From the NCBI GenBank assembly GCA_018402345.1, contig JAGYIV010000012.1, positions 62,001 through 126,000 on the forward strand: a DNA stretch of 64,000 bases, given 5' to 3'. Positions 30,901 to 63,517 of the stretch are shown one piece after another; the stretch's first letter is position 1; every line of letters begins with the position of its first letter. Origin of the DNA: Terrimicrobiaceae bacterium (lineage in GTDB: Bacteria > Verrucomicrobiota > Verrucomicrobiia > Chthoniobacterales > Terrimicrobiaceae). The notes below the pieces were generated by a model that was given only the letters and a program-made list of their open reading frames with translations, ran no database searches and was not told the DNA's origin. Position numbers and translations under genes: made by a program.

Positions 30901-32822
30901 CCTTCGACGTGGAAAAGGAAATTCCCGCACGGTTCGCCGGCAGCGCCGACCAGCGCAACTACAACGCGAACGACCCGGAGCGCCTCACCACCTATACCGC
31001 CGAGGAGAAGGAGGCCCAGCGCACCCGGGCCAAGGAGCTTGCGGCATCGCTCAAGGCCCTCTCGAAAACAGACGGACAGCAATTCACCATCCCGCCGGGC
31101 ATCTATCGCGTGAGCGTCGGTTTGCTTGCCGTCGAAGGGGCAAAGAACCTCTCGATCCATGCCCCGGATGTGGAGATCATTGTCGATGACGAAAAGAGCG
31201 GTAGCGCGTTTTCATTCATAAATTGCGAAGACATCGTGCTCACGGGCCGGGCACCGCAGCAAACGCCCCCCAAGAGCCCGGGTGTTTTGGAAAAACTGGC
31301 CTCCCTTTTCGGCTCGACCCCGCTGGAGCCCGCAAAGCCGGTCCTCACGATCGACTCCGAGCAACTCGCCTTCTCGCTTGCCCGCATCGTCGGGATCAAC
31401 ACGGCCGATATGACGCTCGATGTCGAGGTTCTGCCGGGCTACGACATGGCCCTTCCCGACAAGGAACGCATGCTGGCCTACCGCCCGGATGGCAGCCTCG
31501 CCAACATCCAGCAGATGGGCTGGGAAAAATACCAGTCTCTCGGCGGCCGGATGCTTCGCTTGACCGTCCCAGCTCTGCGCAATCCCCTGATCCAAAACGA
31601 ATCCCTTGCGCCGGGCAACCTGCTGGCCCTGCACAACGCCGAGGCCCACAAGACCCGCACCCACCATCTCGCCTCCACCCGGAACTGCGGCAACATGACT
31701 TACGAGTCCATCCGCATCGTGAACGGCAGCGGATCCCCCGCCGATCACCGCACGGCCGGCCATACCATCTACCGCGACTGGCGGAACTCGCCGCGGCCCG
31801 GCACAAACCGGCTCGAAATCTGCGCGGGCCTCGGGCAGTTTTCCAAAGATGGCGGCACCTTCCTTTTTGAGGACTGCGAATTCGGCCCCCACCTCGACGA
31901 TGGCATCAATCTGCTCTCGATCATCGGCATGACCCTGCGCCAGACAGGCACCAACACGCTCATCGTCGCCGGGGCGGAACCAAAGCCCGGCGAATCCCTC
32001 ACGTTTTATGACTTCTATTCGTGGGAGAAGCTCGGCGAAGCGAAGATCCTCTCCTCGAAACCGCTCAAGGAGGCGGAGTCCGCCCAGGCCACCGAGGCAT
32101 GGTGTGTGCAGAACCGCATCACCAACCACGCCTTGCGGAGCCTTTGGAGCGTGATTCTGGAGAGCCCGGTGCGCCTCACGCCCTTCGCCCCGGTGGTGTA
32201 TTCCAACTACCGCTGCGACAACATCACCGTCCGCGGCTGCCTCTTCCGCGACCAGGTCGCCCAGATCATGCTCATTCAGGGTGCCCGGAGCGGTCTCATC
32301 GAAAACAACCTTCTTCTGCGCTCGACCGGGCCGGCCATCAGCATGCAGTTTGCCCAGTATTGGTGGGAAGGCCCGCAACCTTCGAATTTCATCATCCGCA
32401 ACAACGTCATCCGCGACAACCCCGTGCATGCTCCGGTGAGCGGCGAGGGCGGCTCCGGTTCCATCAGCGTCTGGGCCAATACCGTGCGCTCGGGCGACAG
32501 CGGACGCTTCCCACTCTCCGAAACCAAGCCCGTCACCGAGCGCCTCTTTTCGGGATTCCGCATCGAGGGCAACACGATCATCAACCCTGGCGGCTACGGC
32601 ATCGTCCTGCGCAACACCAGGAACGCCGTCATCCGCCACAACAAGATCGTCAACCCCGGCACCGTCCCCACAACCTACCCCGTCGCCGCCATCGGCCTCG
32701 ACCAGGTCTCCGACACAGTCGTCTCGGACAACGAGGTCGTGCTCGGCAAAAGAAGCGCCCCCGAGGCGGTAAGTTTGCTTCGCGGTTGCGATCCGAAGAC
32801 GATTCGAGTCGAGGACAATTAG
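27993..32822 (+). CDS. PATR-repeat/beta-helix fusion protein (exported), two compensating frameshifts
   Basis: About 1610 codons. N-terminal signal MRLLPSLLIVLFLLACADSS has a lipobox-like LLAC. Next come autotransporter-associated beta-strand (PATR) repeats, best seen at LGSGTLTLNAANSYNGNT followed by VVREGTLAFG, with weaker copies at GKGILSLTGVNSL and NVTLSAENTFTGG. An Ig/FN3-like domain follows (TVTASATDRWVDAIWSF), and then a C-terminal right-handed beta-helix with EDCEFGPHLDDGINL and IIRNNVI/IEGNTII coils. That Asp pair matches the one in the GH110-like protein at 1727. The frame changes at a C4 run (28242-28245) and at a G3 run (about 28799-28801); the indels are opposite in sign and the total length stays a multiple of three. 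No autotransporter barrel or PEP-CTERM tail is seen. The catalytic role is unproven. Confidence 0.65.
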
Positions 32823-32836
32823 ACCACCTTCGGGCC

Positions 32837-34370
32837 ATGATGCCAAAAATCAGTCCCCGCTCTCTCCCTTTCGCCCTGCTGCTCGTGTCGCTCGCTCCAC
32901 TGTGCGCCGCCGATCCAGACAAAAGCCCTGCAAGAACCTTCACCAACCCGATCCTCGCCGGCGACTATCCCGATCCCACAATCGTCAAAGCCGGAGAGGA
33001 TTTTTTTATGACGCATACCTCCGGGCGCTACTCGCCGGGATTGCTGATCTGGAAATCGCGCGACCTCGTCCACTGGACCCCGGTGACCCGCGCGTTGAAT
33101 GTGACCTACGGAGACATCTGGGCGCCGGAGATCGTCCATCACAACGGGAAATTCTACATCTACAGCCACAGCACCACGCTGGGGAATTTCGTCATCTCCG
33201 CGCCTGCCATCGAAGGCCCGTGGAGCGATCCGGTGAAGCTCGACGTCGGAGAAATCGATCCCGGCCATGTCGTGGGCCCCGACGGCAAGCGCTACCTGCA
33301 CTATTCCAAAGGCAAGGCGATCGGGCTCTCGGACGACGGGCTCTCGGTCACGGGAAAACTCGAAAAGGTCTATGATGGCTGGCCGTTCCCAAAGGAATGG
33401 CGCACCGAGGGCTATCTCTGCCTGGAAAGCCCGAAGTTGTTCTTCAAGGATGGTTACTACCATCTCATCTCGGCACAAGGCGGAACCGCGGGAGCGTCCA
33501 CGAGCCACATGGTCGTGCAGGCCCGTTCGCGCTCTCCGCTGGGGCCATGGGAAAACTCTCCCTACAATCCGGTCATCCGCACCGAGAGCCGCGATGAAAC
33601 CTGGTGGTCGCGCGGTCATGGAACCGTCTTTGAAGCCTCGCCGGGGGATTGGTGGATGATTTATCACGCCTATCGCAAGGACGCACGCGCTCTGGGCCGC
33701 CAAACCCTGCTCGAACCGATGGAGTGGACGGCTAACGGTTGGCTGAAATCCAAAGCCGGGAAGGATCCGTCCGTCCCGATCCCCTCGCCAAAGCTTCCAA
33801 GCGCCCCGCTGCCGACCATGCAGTTCTCGGATGATTTCGCCGGGCCGAAACTCGGCATCCAATGGCAGTTCTGGGATGAATACGATCCCGCCCGCTTCGA
33901 ATTCCGTGACAATTCACTGATCCTGAAAGGCAAAGGCACATCGCCTGCGGATTGCAATCCCATGGCGATCAATCCCGGTGACCTCGCCTATGAAGTGACA
34001 GTCGATGTGGAGGTGGAGGGCAAGGCCGAGGCGGGTCTCCTGCTTTTCTACAATCCCACGACCTACTGCGGGCATGGGCATCGGCGACAGGGCCCTCTGG
34101 CAGGGAGCCATGGGCAATCTCCGCAAGACCAGAATCGCCGCGCCTGGAAACAAAATGACCCTGCGCATCCTCTTCGACCACAACGAGGTCGAGTTCTTCG
34201 CCGGACCGGATGAAAACTCCCTCGAGAAATTCGCCAATTCCGAGGACCTCGAAGGCTACAACCACTGCACCTTCGGCGGTTACCTCTCGCTGCGCCCAGC
34301 GCTCTATGCCGCCGGCGATGGAAGCGCGATGTTCAAAAACTTCCGCTACCGCAAGATGGACGGGAAATAA
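32837..34370 (+). CDS. GH43-like glycosidase with C-terminal concanavalin-like domain, frameshifted at about 34070
   Basis: About 510 aa after joining two frames. Signal peptide FALLLVSLAPLCAA. Five-bladed propeller features: NPILAGDYPDPTIVKAGEDF (general base Asp in YPDP), GDIWAPEIVHHNGKFYIY, VGEIDPGHVVGPDGKRYLHY (the pKa-modulating Asp) and the YLCLESPKLFFKDGYYHL region of the acid Glu. The C-terminal part (MQFSDDFAGPKLGIQWQFWD) resembles GH43_C2 beta-sandwich domains. One extra G in GGG at 34070-34072 shifts the frame; the length 1534 is 3n+1. It starts 14 nt after the fusion protein's stop. GH43 acts on arabinosides, xylosides or beta-1,3-galactans; the specificity here is unknown. Confidence 0.75.
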
Positions 34371-34382
34371 TCAGCGCACAGG

Positions 34383-34595
34383 CCGTTGAGTCGTGAACCA
34401 CGAATAGCACGAATAGACACGAATAAGACCGACGCGAAGCACCTGCGGCGAAGCCGCTCACCATTCGTGAAAACTCGTGCTATTCGTGGTAGAACATTTG
34501 AACCACGAATATCTCGAATAGACACGAATAATACCGACTTGGATAACCCGCGGCGAAGCCGCTCCCAATTCGTGAAAATTCGTGCTATTCGTGGT
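34383..34595 (+). repeat. Tandem pair of hairpin repeats (left of the GxxExxY gene)
   Basis: Two about 95-bp copies at 34396-34490 and 34501-34595, 105 bp apart. Each has outer arms beginning ACCACGAATAGCACGAAT (or a variant) and ending in its complement ATTCGTGCTATTCGTGGT, and a central GC-rich mini-hairpin GCGGCGAAGCCGC. The pair is preceded by CCGTTGAGTCGTGA, almost the same as the sequence preceding the right-hand pair. Confidence 0.8.
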
Positions 34596-34621
34596 CAAAC
34601 TCACCAGTTTTTCAAAAAGCA

Positions 34622-35047
34622 ATGACCCCGGATACTTTCGATGAAGCGCCAACCAATATGTCCTTTCGGGCTCTGCGTAAGGAAGTGCTGTATCCCGAAC
34701 TTTCGCATTCAATCGTCGGAGCGGCCATCAAGGTGCTGAACACATTGAAGCCGGGTCTCAGCGAGAAGGCGTATGAGAACGCGCTGTTGATCGAGTTGAA
34801 GAATCAGGGTCATACCATTGAGCAGCAGCGACGCTTTGATGTTTTCTACGAGGGCATCCTGGTGGATACTCTGATCCCGGATCTGCTTGTGGATGGCCTT
34901 GTTCTGGTAGATCCAAAGGTCGTCACCGAGTTTAATGATACTCATGTTGCTCAAATGATGGGCTACTTGGCCATTACAGGTTTCAGGTTGGCCATTTTGC
35001 TCAATTTCAAATACGTCGACCTTCGTCAAAAACGTGTTGTCCGTTGA
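34622..35047 (+). CDS. GxxExxY protein (PD-(D/E)XK nuclease superfamily)
   Basis: 141-aa protein with the diagnostic G-L-S-E-K-A-Y (GxxExxY) segment in KPGLSEKAYENALLIELK. The catalytic-like stretches DTLIPDLLVDGLVLVDPKVV and MMGYLAITGFRLAILLNF, with a hydrophobic C-terminus, follow. This family belongs to the PDDEXK_3 group; its function is unknown. The gene is bracketed by two pairs of hairpin repeats with the same 105-bp period, and its stop codon (TGA in CCGTTGA) lies at the left edge of the downstream pair. Starts at 34622 and 34658 are both possible. Confidence 0.8.
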   Translation: MTPDTFDEAPTNMSFRALRKEVLYPELSHSIVGAAIKVLNTLKPGLSEKAYENALLIELKNQGHTIEQQRRFDVFYEGILVDTLIPDLLVDGLVLVDPKVVTEFNDTHVAQMMGYLAITGFRLAILLNFKYVDLRQKRVVR

Positions 35048-35253
35048 GTCTTGAACCACGAATGGCACGAATGGACACGAATAATGCCAACACGGATAAC
35101 CCGCTGCGAAGCCGCTCCCCATTCGTGAAAATTCGTGTTATTCGTGGCGAAAGATACGGACCACGAATGGCACGAATAGGCACGAATAATGCCGACGTGG
35201 ATAACCTGCGGCGAAGCCGCTCCCCATTCGTGAAGATTCGTAATATTCGTGGT
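35041..35253 (+). repeat. Tandem pair of hairpin repeats (right of the GxxExxY gene)
   Basis: Copies at 35054-35148 and 35159-35253, again 105 bp apart, with the same arm and mini-hairpin structure (GCGGCGAAGCCGC or GCTGCGAAGCCGC). The left edge CCGTTGAGTC is shared with the pair at 34383. Confidence 0.8.
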
Positions 35254-35553
35254 TAAAGAATTTCCGGTGCTCTATCGGTGAATTTCGAATGACCGTGGAT
35301 TGCAGGGCAAAAGGGGATCATCCGGTTTCCCCGCGAGTCGGAAGCCAATGGCCTGAGGGCAGGAGGGCTGAACTTATACCAATCACACATCGTGATAGGT
35401 ATAAAAAGTCGGGCACCTCGGCGATGTGCCCCTACCGATTTTTGGTAGGGATGGCTCGCCGAGCGGTTCGTCGATTCCACCCGTTTCGGTCAAATTGTTG
35501 TTAGTCGCAGGCTTTCATTGTGCCGACGGTGCTGAACACACAAGGAACGTCCA
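35254..35553 (+). repeat. Repeat-rich intergenic region with two further hairpins
   Basis: 300 bp without a gene. It starts with the repeat tail (TTTCCGGTGCTC..., shared with 61430 and 62848). Then comes a 13-bp-arm palindrome at 35374-35404 (TTATACCAATCAC against GTGATAGGTATAA), a long imperfect hairpin at 35417-35463 with CTCGGCGA/TCGCCGAG ends and a CCCTACC/GGTAGGG core, and the left copy (35507-35536) of a 30-bp direct repeat whose other copy is at 37422-37451. Confidence 0.55.
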
Positions 35554-35565
35554 TTTTACGTTTAT
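35554..35565 (+). promoter_or_regulatory. Copy of the window motif (TTTTACGTTTAT) overlapping the Fic stop codon
   Basis: One mismatch. It is the only copy with no downstream gene on its own strand nearby. It lies 18 nt after the 30-bp direct repeat, at nearly the same offset as the functional-looking copy at 37471, so it is best explained as a duplicated promoter fragment. Confidence 0.4.
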
Positions 35566-37104
35566 TCACCGAAGATCTCGCAGAATTTTTCTTCGAGCAG
35601 GGCCGACTCCTTCCCGGTCAGTTCGCTGAGTTCTTTGGAGCGCGCACGCTTGGAAAGTTTGCCTTTGCCCTGCCGCAGAAAGGCGATCAAGGTTTCGGCG
35701 ACCTTGTCTGGCATGTCGAAATGCTCATCGATAAAGCCCTTCATGCGGTCGTGCCGCTCAAGATAAGCGACCTCTTCGGGCAGCGTCTTCTCGACAGTCT
35801 GTTGGACGCATTCGTAGAGAAATTCCGCCTGCCGCGTCGCATCAAAGTAGCGGTAGAGGTCGATCGTTTCATTGAGGATATGGACGTTGCCTCGCGGCGT
35901 GGGCTCCCATTCGATCAGATCCAGCCGGGGCTTTGAACAGGCTTCGAGCGTTCGCCGATAGTCGGCAATCCGGTCCAGTATGACGGCGGAAACAGGAAAG
36001 ACGATGCCAGTAGGGGCAAACCCTTTTTCCGCCAGGACGTGATGAATCAGATAGCGGTGAATCCGTCCGTTGCCGTCCTCGAAGGGGTGGATGAAGACAA
36101 AGCCGAAGGCGATCACGGCGGCGGCAAGGACAGGGTCATACGGACTTTCCGCGAGAATCCGGCTGGCCACGACAAGGCCATCGATCAATGCCGGGATGTC
36201 TTCCCATCGGGCAGAGACGTGATCGGGAATCGGGGAACCGGTCGAGCGGTCGTGGATGCCGATAAAGCCGCCTTCCTTCCTCCATCCCATCGAAATGAAA
36301 CGCTTGTCGCCGATCACGACTTCTTGCAACCGGAGCAATTCGTCCGCTGTGAGCTTCCGCTGGCCCGCCTCGCCAATCGCGCGTCCCCAGCGCTCGGCAC
36401 GGGTATAGGGCGGTCTTTCGCCTTCGATGGCGTAGGAGGCCTTCGAGTCTTTCAGAAGCAGGAAGGCGGCGGCGCGACGCCAGAATGTCCGCGTGGATTG
36501 CGCCGATGGACTTCCTGGCTTTGGCTCCGAGGTCCGTCGCGATCAGGGCTTCGAGTTTCGGTGTGCGCCGAACCAGCGGGCAGAAGTTGCGGGTGCCCGG
36601 CAGGTTATTGCGGACGCGGTGACGCCGGGAGACAGACGGCGCGCAACCATATTGAAAGGCGGAATCCAAGGCGTCGACATAGTTGCCGGCCTTCGCGTCG
36701 GGAATGTCCAGCGTTTTCCCTGTCAGCCATTCGTAAAAGAACCAGAGGCGGCGCGCATAGGCTCCGGTCGGCTCATCTCTGATCATTCGCTCAATCCCGG
36801 CAGACGGAGCGGTGTCGAACAGCGCCTTGAGAACCGCCAGGTCGATGCCTTCGTGCTTGAATGCGAACCTCAGGTGGCCCGCGAGTGTGTTCTCTGGCTT
36901 GTGCTTCGGAGTAAAGACGAGCCAGGGGGCTTTCTCATACCGGCGATGTTTCGCGCTAATCGCAGAGATGTGGTCGGGTAAGGGCGAACGCAGGCCGAAG
37001 TGAGCGATGAGGGCACTGTAGCCCGCCAGCGACATTTCTGCTTCCGGCAGTGCGAGACCGTGAAAACTGCTGACATTCTGTGCAAAAGAGTTCCCCAGAG
37101 CCAT
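35562..37104 (-). CDS. Fic-family protein (probable AMP-transferase), frameshifted near 36475
   Basis: About 514 aa after joining frames. The N-terminal half (SLAGYSALIAHFGLRSPLPD to HADILA) is a helical domain. After the shift, SYAIEGERPP and the core motif HPFEDGNGR are intact; this motif transfers AMP, or another NMP, to target proteins. The IEGE-like segment may correspond to the inhibitory helix motif of Fic proteins. The C-terminus matches the remnant at 20696. One extra base in the GC-rich run GGCGGCGGCGCG on the plus strand (about 36466-36478) explains the shift, and the length 1543 is 3n+1. Hairpin repeats and a 30-bp direct repeat flank the gene. It looks like accessory cargo rather than glycan machinery. 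Confidence 0.72.
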
Positions 37105-37271: not shown

Positions 37272-37388
37272 GCCACGAATTTGAGAGCCTGGCCGTTGTT
37301 GCAGCACGAATAGACACGAATAAAGCAGAGCATCAGAACCTGCGGCGAAGCCGCTCCCCATTCGTGAAGATTCGTTCCATTCGTGGTG
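37272..37388 (+). repeat. Hairpin repeat copy with an internal insertion
   Basis: Left arm begins GCCACGAAT and is interrupted by about 22 bp before GCACGAATAGACACGAATAA. The mini-hairpin GCGGCGAAGCCGC and the right arm ending ATTCGTGGT are complete. Confidence 0.65.
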
Positions 37389-37421
37389 AAAAAATTTCCG
37401 GTGGTCTGGATCGCTATTGTT

Positions 37422-37451
37422 GCAGGCTTTCCTTGTGCCGACGGTGCTGAA
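37422..37451 (+). repeat. Right copy of the 30-bp direct repeat flanking the Fic locus
   Basis: Matches 35507-35536 at 29 of 30 positions. It begins GCAGGCTTTC and ends CCGACGGTGCTGAA. Both copies are followed 18-20 nt later by a window motif. Confidence 0.65.
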
Positions 37452-39250: not shown

Positions 39251-39261
39251 ATGAACGAGGC

Positions 39262-39362
39262 GCAGCCGCTCCCCATTCGTGAAGATTCGTTCCATTCGTG
39301 GTTAAAAATTCGAACCACGAATAGCACGAATGGACACGAATAATTCTGACGCGGATAACCCT
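39262..39362 (+). repeat. Rearranged hairpin repeat: right half followed by left half
   Basis: A right-half segment (GCAGCCGCTCCCC to ATTCGTGGTT, 39262-39303) is followed by a left-half segment (ACCACGAATAGCACGAAT to GCGGATAACC, about 39314-39360). This is the order expected if one unit was lost between two tandem copies. Confidence 0.65.
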
Positions 39363-53550: not shown

Positions 53551-53562
53551 TTCCGTTGCCTT

Positions 53563-53627
53563 CAACCATGAATGTCCCGACTGAACACGAATAATGCCGA
53601 CACGGATAACTGCGGCGAAGCCGCCTC
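53563..53627 (+). repeat. Partial hairpin repeat after the second GH116-like gene
   Basis: Degenerate left arm (ACCATGAATGTC...ACACGAATAATGCCGACACG) and the mini-hairpin GCGGCGAAGCCGC; no right arm. Confidence 0.55.
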
Positions 53628-53875
53628 AACCCTGTAGCGGAACTCGGAACGAGTTTCGACGGCGTTTGGTGGGGCCTCGCGGGCAGCGGTCGAAATTTCA
53701 AATGCCGCGCTTTTCGTGCTGGGCGGGCCCATCCGGTTTCCCGGCGAGTCAGGATGTCTGTGGTTGGTGAAAATTGACCGTTCCGGAAAACAGCAAATCG
53801 GCAGTTCTCAAGCACGGTCTGTCAGACGCATTTCGCAGCAATGTCCCGGCCACTCGCCTATTCCTGCGGATCCCG
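53628..53875 (+). other. Intergenic stretch without a recognisable gene
   Basis: About 250 bp following the partial repeat. A CATCCGGTTTCCCGG segment near 53730 recurs near 35320 and 61490, so part of this is repeat tail. No coding signal is recognised. Confidence 0.4.
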
Positions 53876-61133: not shown

Positions 61134-61645
61134 GTCGAACACCCCGACCCGCATATCCACGAACAAAATTCCCGCTCCAACCCTATCCTATAAAAAAGCA
61201 CCCGCCTCGCTGATCCCAGTCTCTGCACGGCCGAGACGGCGACTTGCATCCATGGCGCCATGGGCCTCACACAGGCGGGGACGCCTCTGCCCCTCTCTTG
61301 TGTGTGCAAAGATGACAGCATTGGGTGAGACGCCCGCACACCATTCCAGAAGTCCAAAAGCGATCGTATGTTGGTATTATGTCGCCGCACGCCATTCGTG
61401 AATATTCGTTCCATTCGTGGTGAAAAAATTTCCGATGCTCTGGATCGGTGCATACTGCATGGCCGTGGTTTTCAGAGTGAAAGGGGATGATCCGGTTTCC
61501 CGGCTCTGCGGAGGCAGATGCATGGTCTCCAAGACTGGCGTTGGCTCCACGCATTCTCGGCACATCACCTCAAACAAGAATTTTCGGTCCGGCTAATTGC
61601 CCAAACCTACAGCATTTAAAACTGCTCAAGCAAAGCCCGCGACGC
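61134..61645 (+). other. Intergenic region with half a hairpin repeat and its tail
   Basis: 512 bp without a gene. The right half of a hairpin repeat (GCCATTCGTGAATATTCG to CATTCGTGG, about 61390-61421) is followed by the tail segment starting TTTCCGATGCTCTGG (61430 on). That segment recurs at 62848 and, in diverged form, at 35262. 61134-61380 shows nothing recognisable, and no clear terminator follows the fucose operon. Confidence 0.55.
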
Positions 61646-62647: not shown

Positions 62648-62696
62648 GTAGGGAAGAATCGCGCCGGCAGTTGCCGTGAAACAAGCTCAATTATGT

Positions 62697-62881
62697 CGCC
62701 GCACCCCATTCGTGAAAACTCGTTCCATTCGTGGGGAAAGATACGAACCACGAATAGCACGAATAGACACGAATACTGCCGACGCGAAGCACCCGCGGCG
62801 AAGCCGCACCCATTCGTGAATACTCGTTCCATTCGTGGTGAAAGAATTTCCGATGCTCTGGATCGGTGCATACTGCATGGC
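62697..62881 (+). repeat. Hairpin repeat: right half, one full copy, and conserved tail
   Basis: Right half at about 62697-62733, complete copy at 62746-62838 (ACCACGAATAGCACGAAT arms, GCGGCGAAGCCGC core), then the tail TTTCCGATGCTCTGG... to 62881, shared almost base for base with 61430-61462. Confidence 0.75.
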
Positions 62882-62989
62882 CCTTGTGAGGCCCCGTAGG
62901 AACCACGGCGTCATGCGCCTCACACAGGCGGGACGCCTGGCCTACATAAACGCCCTCGAAAATCCACAACCTTGGAGACTCTGTTCTGT

Positions 62990-63329: not shown

Positions 63330-63423
63330 TAAACATTTTGAACTGTGGCCTTGAGTCCGAGCAACCACGGCGTAAGGAATGACTCTGTGCCCGAGGTGTC
63401 GATTGCCAACGGTCACGTAGCAC

Positions 63424-63497
63424 AAAACCTCCCGAAACCTCCCGAAACCTCCCGAAACCTCCCGAAACCTCCCGAAACCTCCCGAAACCTCCCGAAA
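63424..63497 (+). repeat. Tandem array of a 10-bp unit (CCCGAAACCT)
   Basis: About seven perfect units between the motif at 63318 and the ATG at 63518. Ten bp is close to one turn of B-DNA. The minus strand reads as repeated GGGAGG, and an antisense frame through it is an artefact of the repeat. Confidence 0.9.
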
Positions 63498-63517
63498 TCA
63501 TCCCACCCAAACATTTT

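Follow-up and report, generated by a model that had tools for sequence, protein, structure and literature searches.

A GxxExxY nuclease gene and its triple-heptamer arms: a probable tiny mobile element of a kind not yet described, with gene-less offspring

The described systems closest to the locus reported here are the REP/REPIN repeats with their RAYT (TnpA_REP) genes, the "REPtrons." In both, a dedicated single gene has inverted copies of a short repeat on its flanks, this repeat is also scattered elsewhere, alone, in inverted pairs, or in tandem groups, the repeats sit tightly at the ends of open reading frames (ORFs), and the gene is mostly chromosomal and conserved. MITEs and their parent insertion sequences (ISs) offer a second likeness, in that terminal inverted repeats are common to the gene-bearing unit and to short gene-less derivatives. 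A third is the 23S rRNA intervening sequence with its S23/IVP four-helix protein, likewise a selfish unit, of ∼430 bp, that contains a small ORF (428 nucleotides [nt] in Coxiella [PMC4990558]). The enzymes differ. A RAYT is an HUH Y1 transposase, whereas the protein considered here is a PD-(D/E)XK nuclease with the RecB/Cas4/lambda-exonuclease fold; unlike in MITE/IS systems, this nuclease is the sole ORF of the unit, which has no DDE, serine, or tyrosine enzyme; and unlike the intervening sequence, the unit lies outside rRNA and encodes an unrelated protein (PF13366). To our knowledge, the GxxExxY proteins (TIGR04256/PF13366), which are widely annotated, have no known role. Our literature search by family names and arm sequences, with subscription papers and preprints outside its scope, found no description of the arms or of a mobile-unit organization in papers on this family.

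The window is a stretch of 64,000 nt from a Terrimicrobiaceae bacterium. The central locus has the following features.

34383 to 34392, + strand: left edge of pair A, the 10-bp CCGTTGAGTC, also found at pair B
34397 to 34490, no strand: hairpin A1 of the left pair (folding z, −6.5)
34502 to 34595, no strand: hairpin A2 of the left pair (folding z, −5.7)
34622 to 35047, + strand: gene for a GxxExxY protein of 141 amino acids, a RecB/Cas4-like PD-(D/E)XK nuclease (PF13366, TIGR04256, conserved residues, AlphaFold/Foldseek)
35041 to 35050, + strand: edge CCGTTGAGTC at pair B, holding the nuclease stop codon
35055 to 35148, no strand: hairpin B1 of the right pair (folding z, −6.1)
35160 to 35253, no strand: hairpin B2 of the right pair (folding z, −3.9)

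The original prediction placed a GxxExxY-like gene between two tandem pairs of 95-bp hairpins with an equal 105-bp period and a common left edge, and this layout was borne out, with units of 94 nt, a 105-nt period on both sides, folding z values of −3.9 to −6.5 for the four hairpins, and the stop codon TGA (35045 to 35047) inside the right copy of CCGTTGAGTC. The further suggestion, of a second such gene whose 3′ edge is retained in the left pair, was not supported. The edge common to the two pairs is only 10 bp, the alignment of pair A with pair B breaks off sharply at either end, and a third copy (∼37287) has only GGCCGTTG in common at its left edge. With ≤1 mismatch, CCGTTGAGTC occurs once more in the window beyond pairs A and B, distant from every hairpin. 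Each arm of the hairpins consists of three copies of CACGAAT spaced 9 to 10 nt apart; allowing ≤3 mismatches, this arm has 16 matches in the window versus none in 100 dinucleotide-preserving shuffles. The stretch matched no Rfam family, no PADLOC (antiphage defense) model, and no PHROG. Directly upstream of hairpin A, an ORF (32021 to 34370, + strand) seemingly shifts frame near 34050 to 34200, in a frameshift-like manner. On the other side, a Fic-family gene (35562 to 37104, − strand) runs across two overlapping frames (frameshift) and has hairpin B2 on one side and, at ∼37294, a solo hairpin on the other; on a Treponema plasmid, a Fic gene likewise follows a GxxExxY gene.

The window gene is a member of the GxxExxY/PDDEXK_3 family, with matches to PF13366 (E = 2e-32, 112 bits versus the Pfam cutoff of 22) and TIGR04256 (E = 1.6e-33, 115 bits versus the NCBIfam cutoff of 35). 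Its motifs GLSEKAY, PD, DPK, and QMMGY correspond to G-x-x-E-x-x-Y, D, (E/D)xK, and QxxxY. The active site is conserved in nearly all of the 138 proteins compared (E in 138, D in 137, K in 138, Q in 137, and Y in 136), the clade of the window gene having D-x-K in place of E-x-K. A sequence search found no relatives of solved structure. An AlphaFold model of the protein (pLDDT, 92) was closest by Foldseek to alkaline/lambda exonucleases, including LHK exonuclease, and to Cas4. The PDDEXK_3 profile alone matches the window gene, which contains no HUH Y1 tyrosine transposase; reading of the sequence found no GTAG or CGTC foot, the units starting with ACCACGAAT and finishing with ATTCGTGGT. The unit is therefore not a member of the REP/RAYT group, though it resembles that group with an unrelated enzyme, as the original prediction proposed. 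It differs also in its arms, which are three tandem heptamers (CRCNRAK) spanning 25 to 30 nt, and in that arm families vary among the loci of one genome.

This variation is evident in the window's own genome (3.1 Mb, 17 contigs), which has six GxxExxY genes. All six are bracketed, each by a different heptamer; those of the other five copies are CACGGAG/CACAGAG, ACAGAAT, CGCAGAT, ACAGGAT, and CGCAGAG. The arm design is the same throughout: heptamer copies follow one another at intervals of about one helical turn, in direct orientation on one side of the gene and inverted on the other. CACGAAT arms fall almost entirely within C6:96-125 kb, C2 having a single hairpin, and thus five of the six genes lack them. 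The idea that CACGAAT hairpins mark all GxxExxY genes was accordingly ruled out: the heptamer class differs from gene to gene, and CACGAAT belongs to this gene only in the genome.

We consider it rather probable that a GxxExxY gene and its arms make up one genetic unit that is mobile, has gene-less derivatives, and encodes a nuclease that probably recognizes and cuts its own arms, promoting their dispersal. The unit would be an arm, the nuclease gene, and an inverted arm, ∼450 to 550 bp in all, each arm having three heptamer copies about one helical turn apart. It would insert, at the one precisely resolved locus between two adjacent genes, and would give rise to single arms, to inverted pairs that fold as hairpins, and to tandem hairpins such as those in the window. 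Most likely, the nuclease recognizes its own heptamers and cuts at or beside the arms or hairpins, the probable substrate being folded single strands at replication forks; host repair would then copy arm-bounded DNA to new sites. DNA binding, cleavage, and dispersal by the nuclease are suggested by the co-variation of arms and protein, by their tight linkage, and by analogy with TnpA_REP (PMC8266576, PMC3733652).

The linkage was surveyed by scanning for relatives across 84,980 species genomes and analyzing the best 80 loci to one query, which are not a random sample; they come from organisms of many phyla, including archaea, and many are from metagenome-assembled genomes. A motif-free detector (three 7-mers with ≤1 mismatch, spacing 8 to 12) found 41 arrays to the left and 55 to the right within 200 bp of these 80 genes versus ∼2 in each 200-bp bin more than 1 kb away. 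An arm consensus (CRCNRAK three times, spacing 8 to 11) was framed mainly on loci from the window's own genome and recovered in the 80. By this consensus, 44 of 73 GxxExxY loci had a left arm (+) and a right arm (−) within 300 bp (33 of 73 without mismatch), whereas of the other ORFs from these contigs, taken as controls, 2 of 177 did (1 of 177 without mismatch). This is the test that the original prediction called for, and it supports a joint spread of gene and repeats. None of 25 four-helix 23S-IVP genes had arms, which rules out these genes as a second cargo. Among family-level GxxExxY loci, 28 of 55 had consensus arms, and the motif-free detector added several. Annotated examples place the unit between codirectional neighbor genes, such as fabD and fabG or radA and the gene for an FAD-dependent protein, and the consensus outer edge of units is TTTAACC. 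A distant GxxExxY clade (L188, L189, and L190) had no detected arms and is possibly a host-resident subfamily.

Another enzyme might move the arms. A RAYT/TIRYT, an IS200/IS605 TnpA, or a DDE transposase could do so, with GxxExxY genes as frequent passengers or as genes that prefer arm-rich places. Long terminal inverted repeats can flank RAYT genes, and REPs abound in Opitutus terrae (PMC3733652); in two genomes (G017 and G021) arms bracket a DUF433-like ORF that is not GxxExxY. We nevertheless judge this explanation quite unlikely, given the GxxExxY-specific association in the survey and two further results. First, the two arms match within a locus: the distance between left and right heptamers averaged 0.74 letters versus 1.71 when loci were shuffled (0 of 2,000 shuffles), and 0.69 versus 1.96 at the family level. 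Second, heptamer type tracks the GxxExxY phylogeny. On a tree of the 138 proteins, position 7 required 3 changes versus 12.4 after shuffling, position 2 required 18 versus 29.2, and the whole heptamer required 49 versus 68.5 (0 of 300 shuffles in each case). In the pan-phylum set alone, the whole heptamer did not correlate significantly with the tree (34 versus 35.9), and position 2 was still significant. The window gene falls in a clade of six with 100% support, drawn from several genera, whose arms are all CACG[G/A]AT and in most cases are present as whole hairpins beside the gene. Tandem hairpins likewise lie to the left and right of the closest relative of the window gene (L182, 75% identical and from another genus), there with another heptamer and a period of 111 bp, which supports the predicted joint spread of gene and repeats.

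If gene and arms do form a mobile unit, sites with and without it should be found, and one such site was (L173). It is filled in four genomes (G016, G020, G000, and G014) and empty in 10 congeneric genomes (G019, G012, G025, G017, G013, G011, G022, G015, G018, and G021), a pattern like that of MITEs and ISs. In nine of the 10 empty alleles, the flanking genes directly adjoin, and in the filled alleles ∼455 bp of arm-gene-arm lies there; the 10th (G022) has a short unrelated spacer. The sequence CATGATC is present once at several of the empty sites and on both sides of the unit in G020 and G000. It may be a 7-bp target duplication, but a stop codon and a start codon belonging to the neighbors lie within it, and retention of these codons could also explain it. 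Target duplication is thus uncertain here; the unit's ends of reiterated heptamers set it apart from MITEs and ISs. Genome-wide, the value for flanking repeats was 4.84 versus 4.29, a weak excess that may partly reflect composition. Clean empty alleles were found at this one locus, most other units in the genus being at conserved positions. L172 was ruled out as a second empty site since its flanking genes are nonadjacent in other genomes, and L178 does not give a clean insertion test; there a conserved gene end adjoins, but the left flanks differ. For the window element, a search for an orthologous empty site matched repeats only, the flanks not being conserved within the genus.

These sites bear on a different role for the nuclease, as a self-binding regulator or genome-maintenance enzyme. 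The arms would then be operators or processing sites, the protein would serve the host in repair or in processing of replication forks or fold-backs, and ordinary recombination would spread the arms. The values of dN/dS for GxxExxY genes were 0.04 to 0.24, which shows purifying selection, and were ∼0.05 in long-resident copies, where the selection is strong. The unit at the pur locus is such an old resident; it is common to many congeners, lies at synteny breakpoints, and is vertically inherited. Its far neighbor is purQ-, gatA-, or gnd-like depending on the species (L274 to L277 and L273; gene names by our own reading), which places rearrangement breakpoints at the arms. GxxExxY genes are also biased toward chromosomes, with copies on only 8 of 72,556 plasmids and none found on phages; of five plasmid-borne copies inspected, four were bracketed by arms and the remaining one had a shorter pair. 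The selection, the vertical inheritance, and the chromosomal bias fit a resident host function, but the filled and empty alleles of the whole unit, the dispersal of solo copies, and the occurrence of related genes in unlike contexts make this explanation unlikely. Examples of similar genes with unlike contexts or flanks are L083 and L172 (91% DNA identity), L179 and L180 (82%; different genera), and L005 and L182.

A small stand-alone PD-(D/E)XK nuclease inserted at a conserved intergenic site also recalls homing, in which the nuclease would cut empty sites, recombination would copy the unit in, and the arms would protect or terminate. This we regard as very unlikely: the sites of different units are unrelated, solo arms that lack the gene are plentiful, and heptamers co-vary with the protein. 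The last point suggests that the arms, rather than the target, are recognized.

If nuclease and arms do move as a unit, gene-less copies would be expected, and those in the window itself are as follows.

37294 to 37387, no strand: solo hairpin with truncated 5′ arm
39255 to 39360, no strand: right half plus left half of a hairpin, without a gene between
53560 to 53640, no strand: degenerate left half of a hairpin
61350 to 61421, no strand: right half only of a hairpin
62690 to 62839, no strand: right half, then a full hairpin (62747 to 62839)

None of these full or partial copies adjoins a GxxExxY gene. In three genomes, exact arms numbered 47, 71, and 65, with 0 for the reversed control. Independent occurrence of hairpins had been named beforehand as evidence against the link, and most arms are indeed not beside a GxxExxY gene, so hairpins are ruled out as a feature of GxxExxY genes only. 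The link itself stands: ∼21% (G000) and ∼8% (G012) of arms are beside such a gene, 57 to 118 times the expectation (P ∼2e-18 and ∼3e-8, respectively, with arms within one cluster not being independent), and solo arms fit non-autonomous copies. The commonest solo arm, CACAGAGGACACAGAGAGCACAGAG, is identical in every letter to an arm of the pur-locus unit of G012, and at L354 solo hairpins lie 1.2 to 2.4 kb from a gene-bearing unit whose arms are of the same type. Several congeners have solo CACGAAT hairpins in which the loop is conserved. CACGAAT hairpins also occur in genomes in which no gene of the window clade was found, a point against the proposed unit.

Repeats of the CCACAGAGACACAGAG type are scattered through many environmental genomes, and pairing them with GxxExxY genes gives both a testable function. 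The nuclease-repeat pair would be an analogue of RAYT/REP of independent origin, built on the RecB/Cas4/lambda exonuclease fold. Because the predicted binding site sits beside each protein's gene, the question of which enzyme spreads the repeats becomes directly testable, and the loci offer naturally occurring arm pairs, both matched and mismatched. The broader proposal is that these are pan-bacterial, and also archaeal, minimal mobile elements, whose lone mobility protein is a 13- to 16-kDa RecB/Cas4-fold PD-(D/E)XK nuclease recognizing triple-heptamer arms, and whose gene-less arm and hairpin derivatives make up many intergenic repeats of Verrucomicrobiota, Bacteroidota, Chloroflexota, Planctomycetota, and others; to us its chances of being right and wrong appear evenly balanced.

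Several smaller features of the repeats were also seen. Some window hairpins have a common tail of up to ∼120 bp, beginning with AATTTCCGATGCTCTGGATCGG (35254 to 35350, 37388 to 37450, 61422 to 61520, and 62840 to 62887), which makes some of the copies composite repeats of greater length. A 10-bp tandem repeat, AAACCTCCCG, is present in ∼8 copies at 63415 to 63507. On a 6.9-kb contig of G017 (C323; L206 and L213), CACGAAT hairpins repeat at ∼1.1-kb spacing. At L280 and L282 (∼2440 to 2900), inverted CACAGAG arms surround the DUF433-like ORF downstream of the neighbor gene of the pur-locus unit of G000, and in G024 (L279) arms are at the corresponding place and the DUF433-like ORF is absent.
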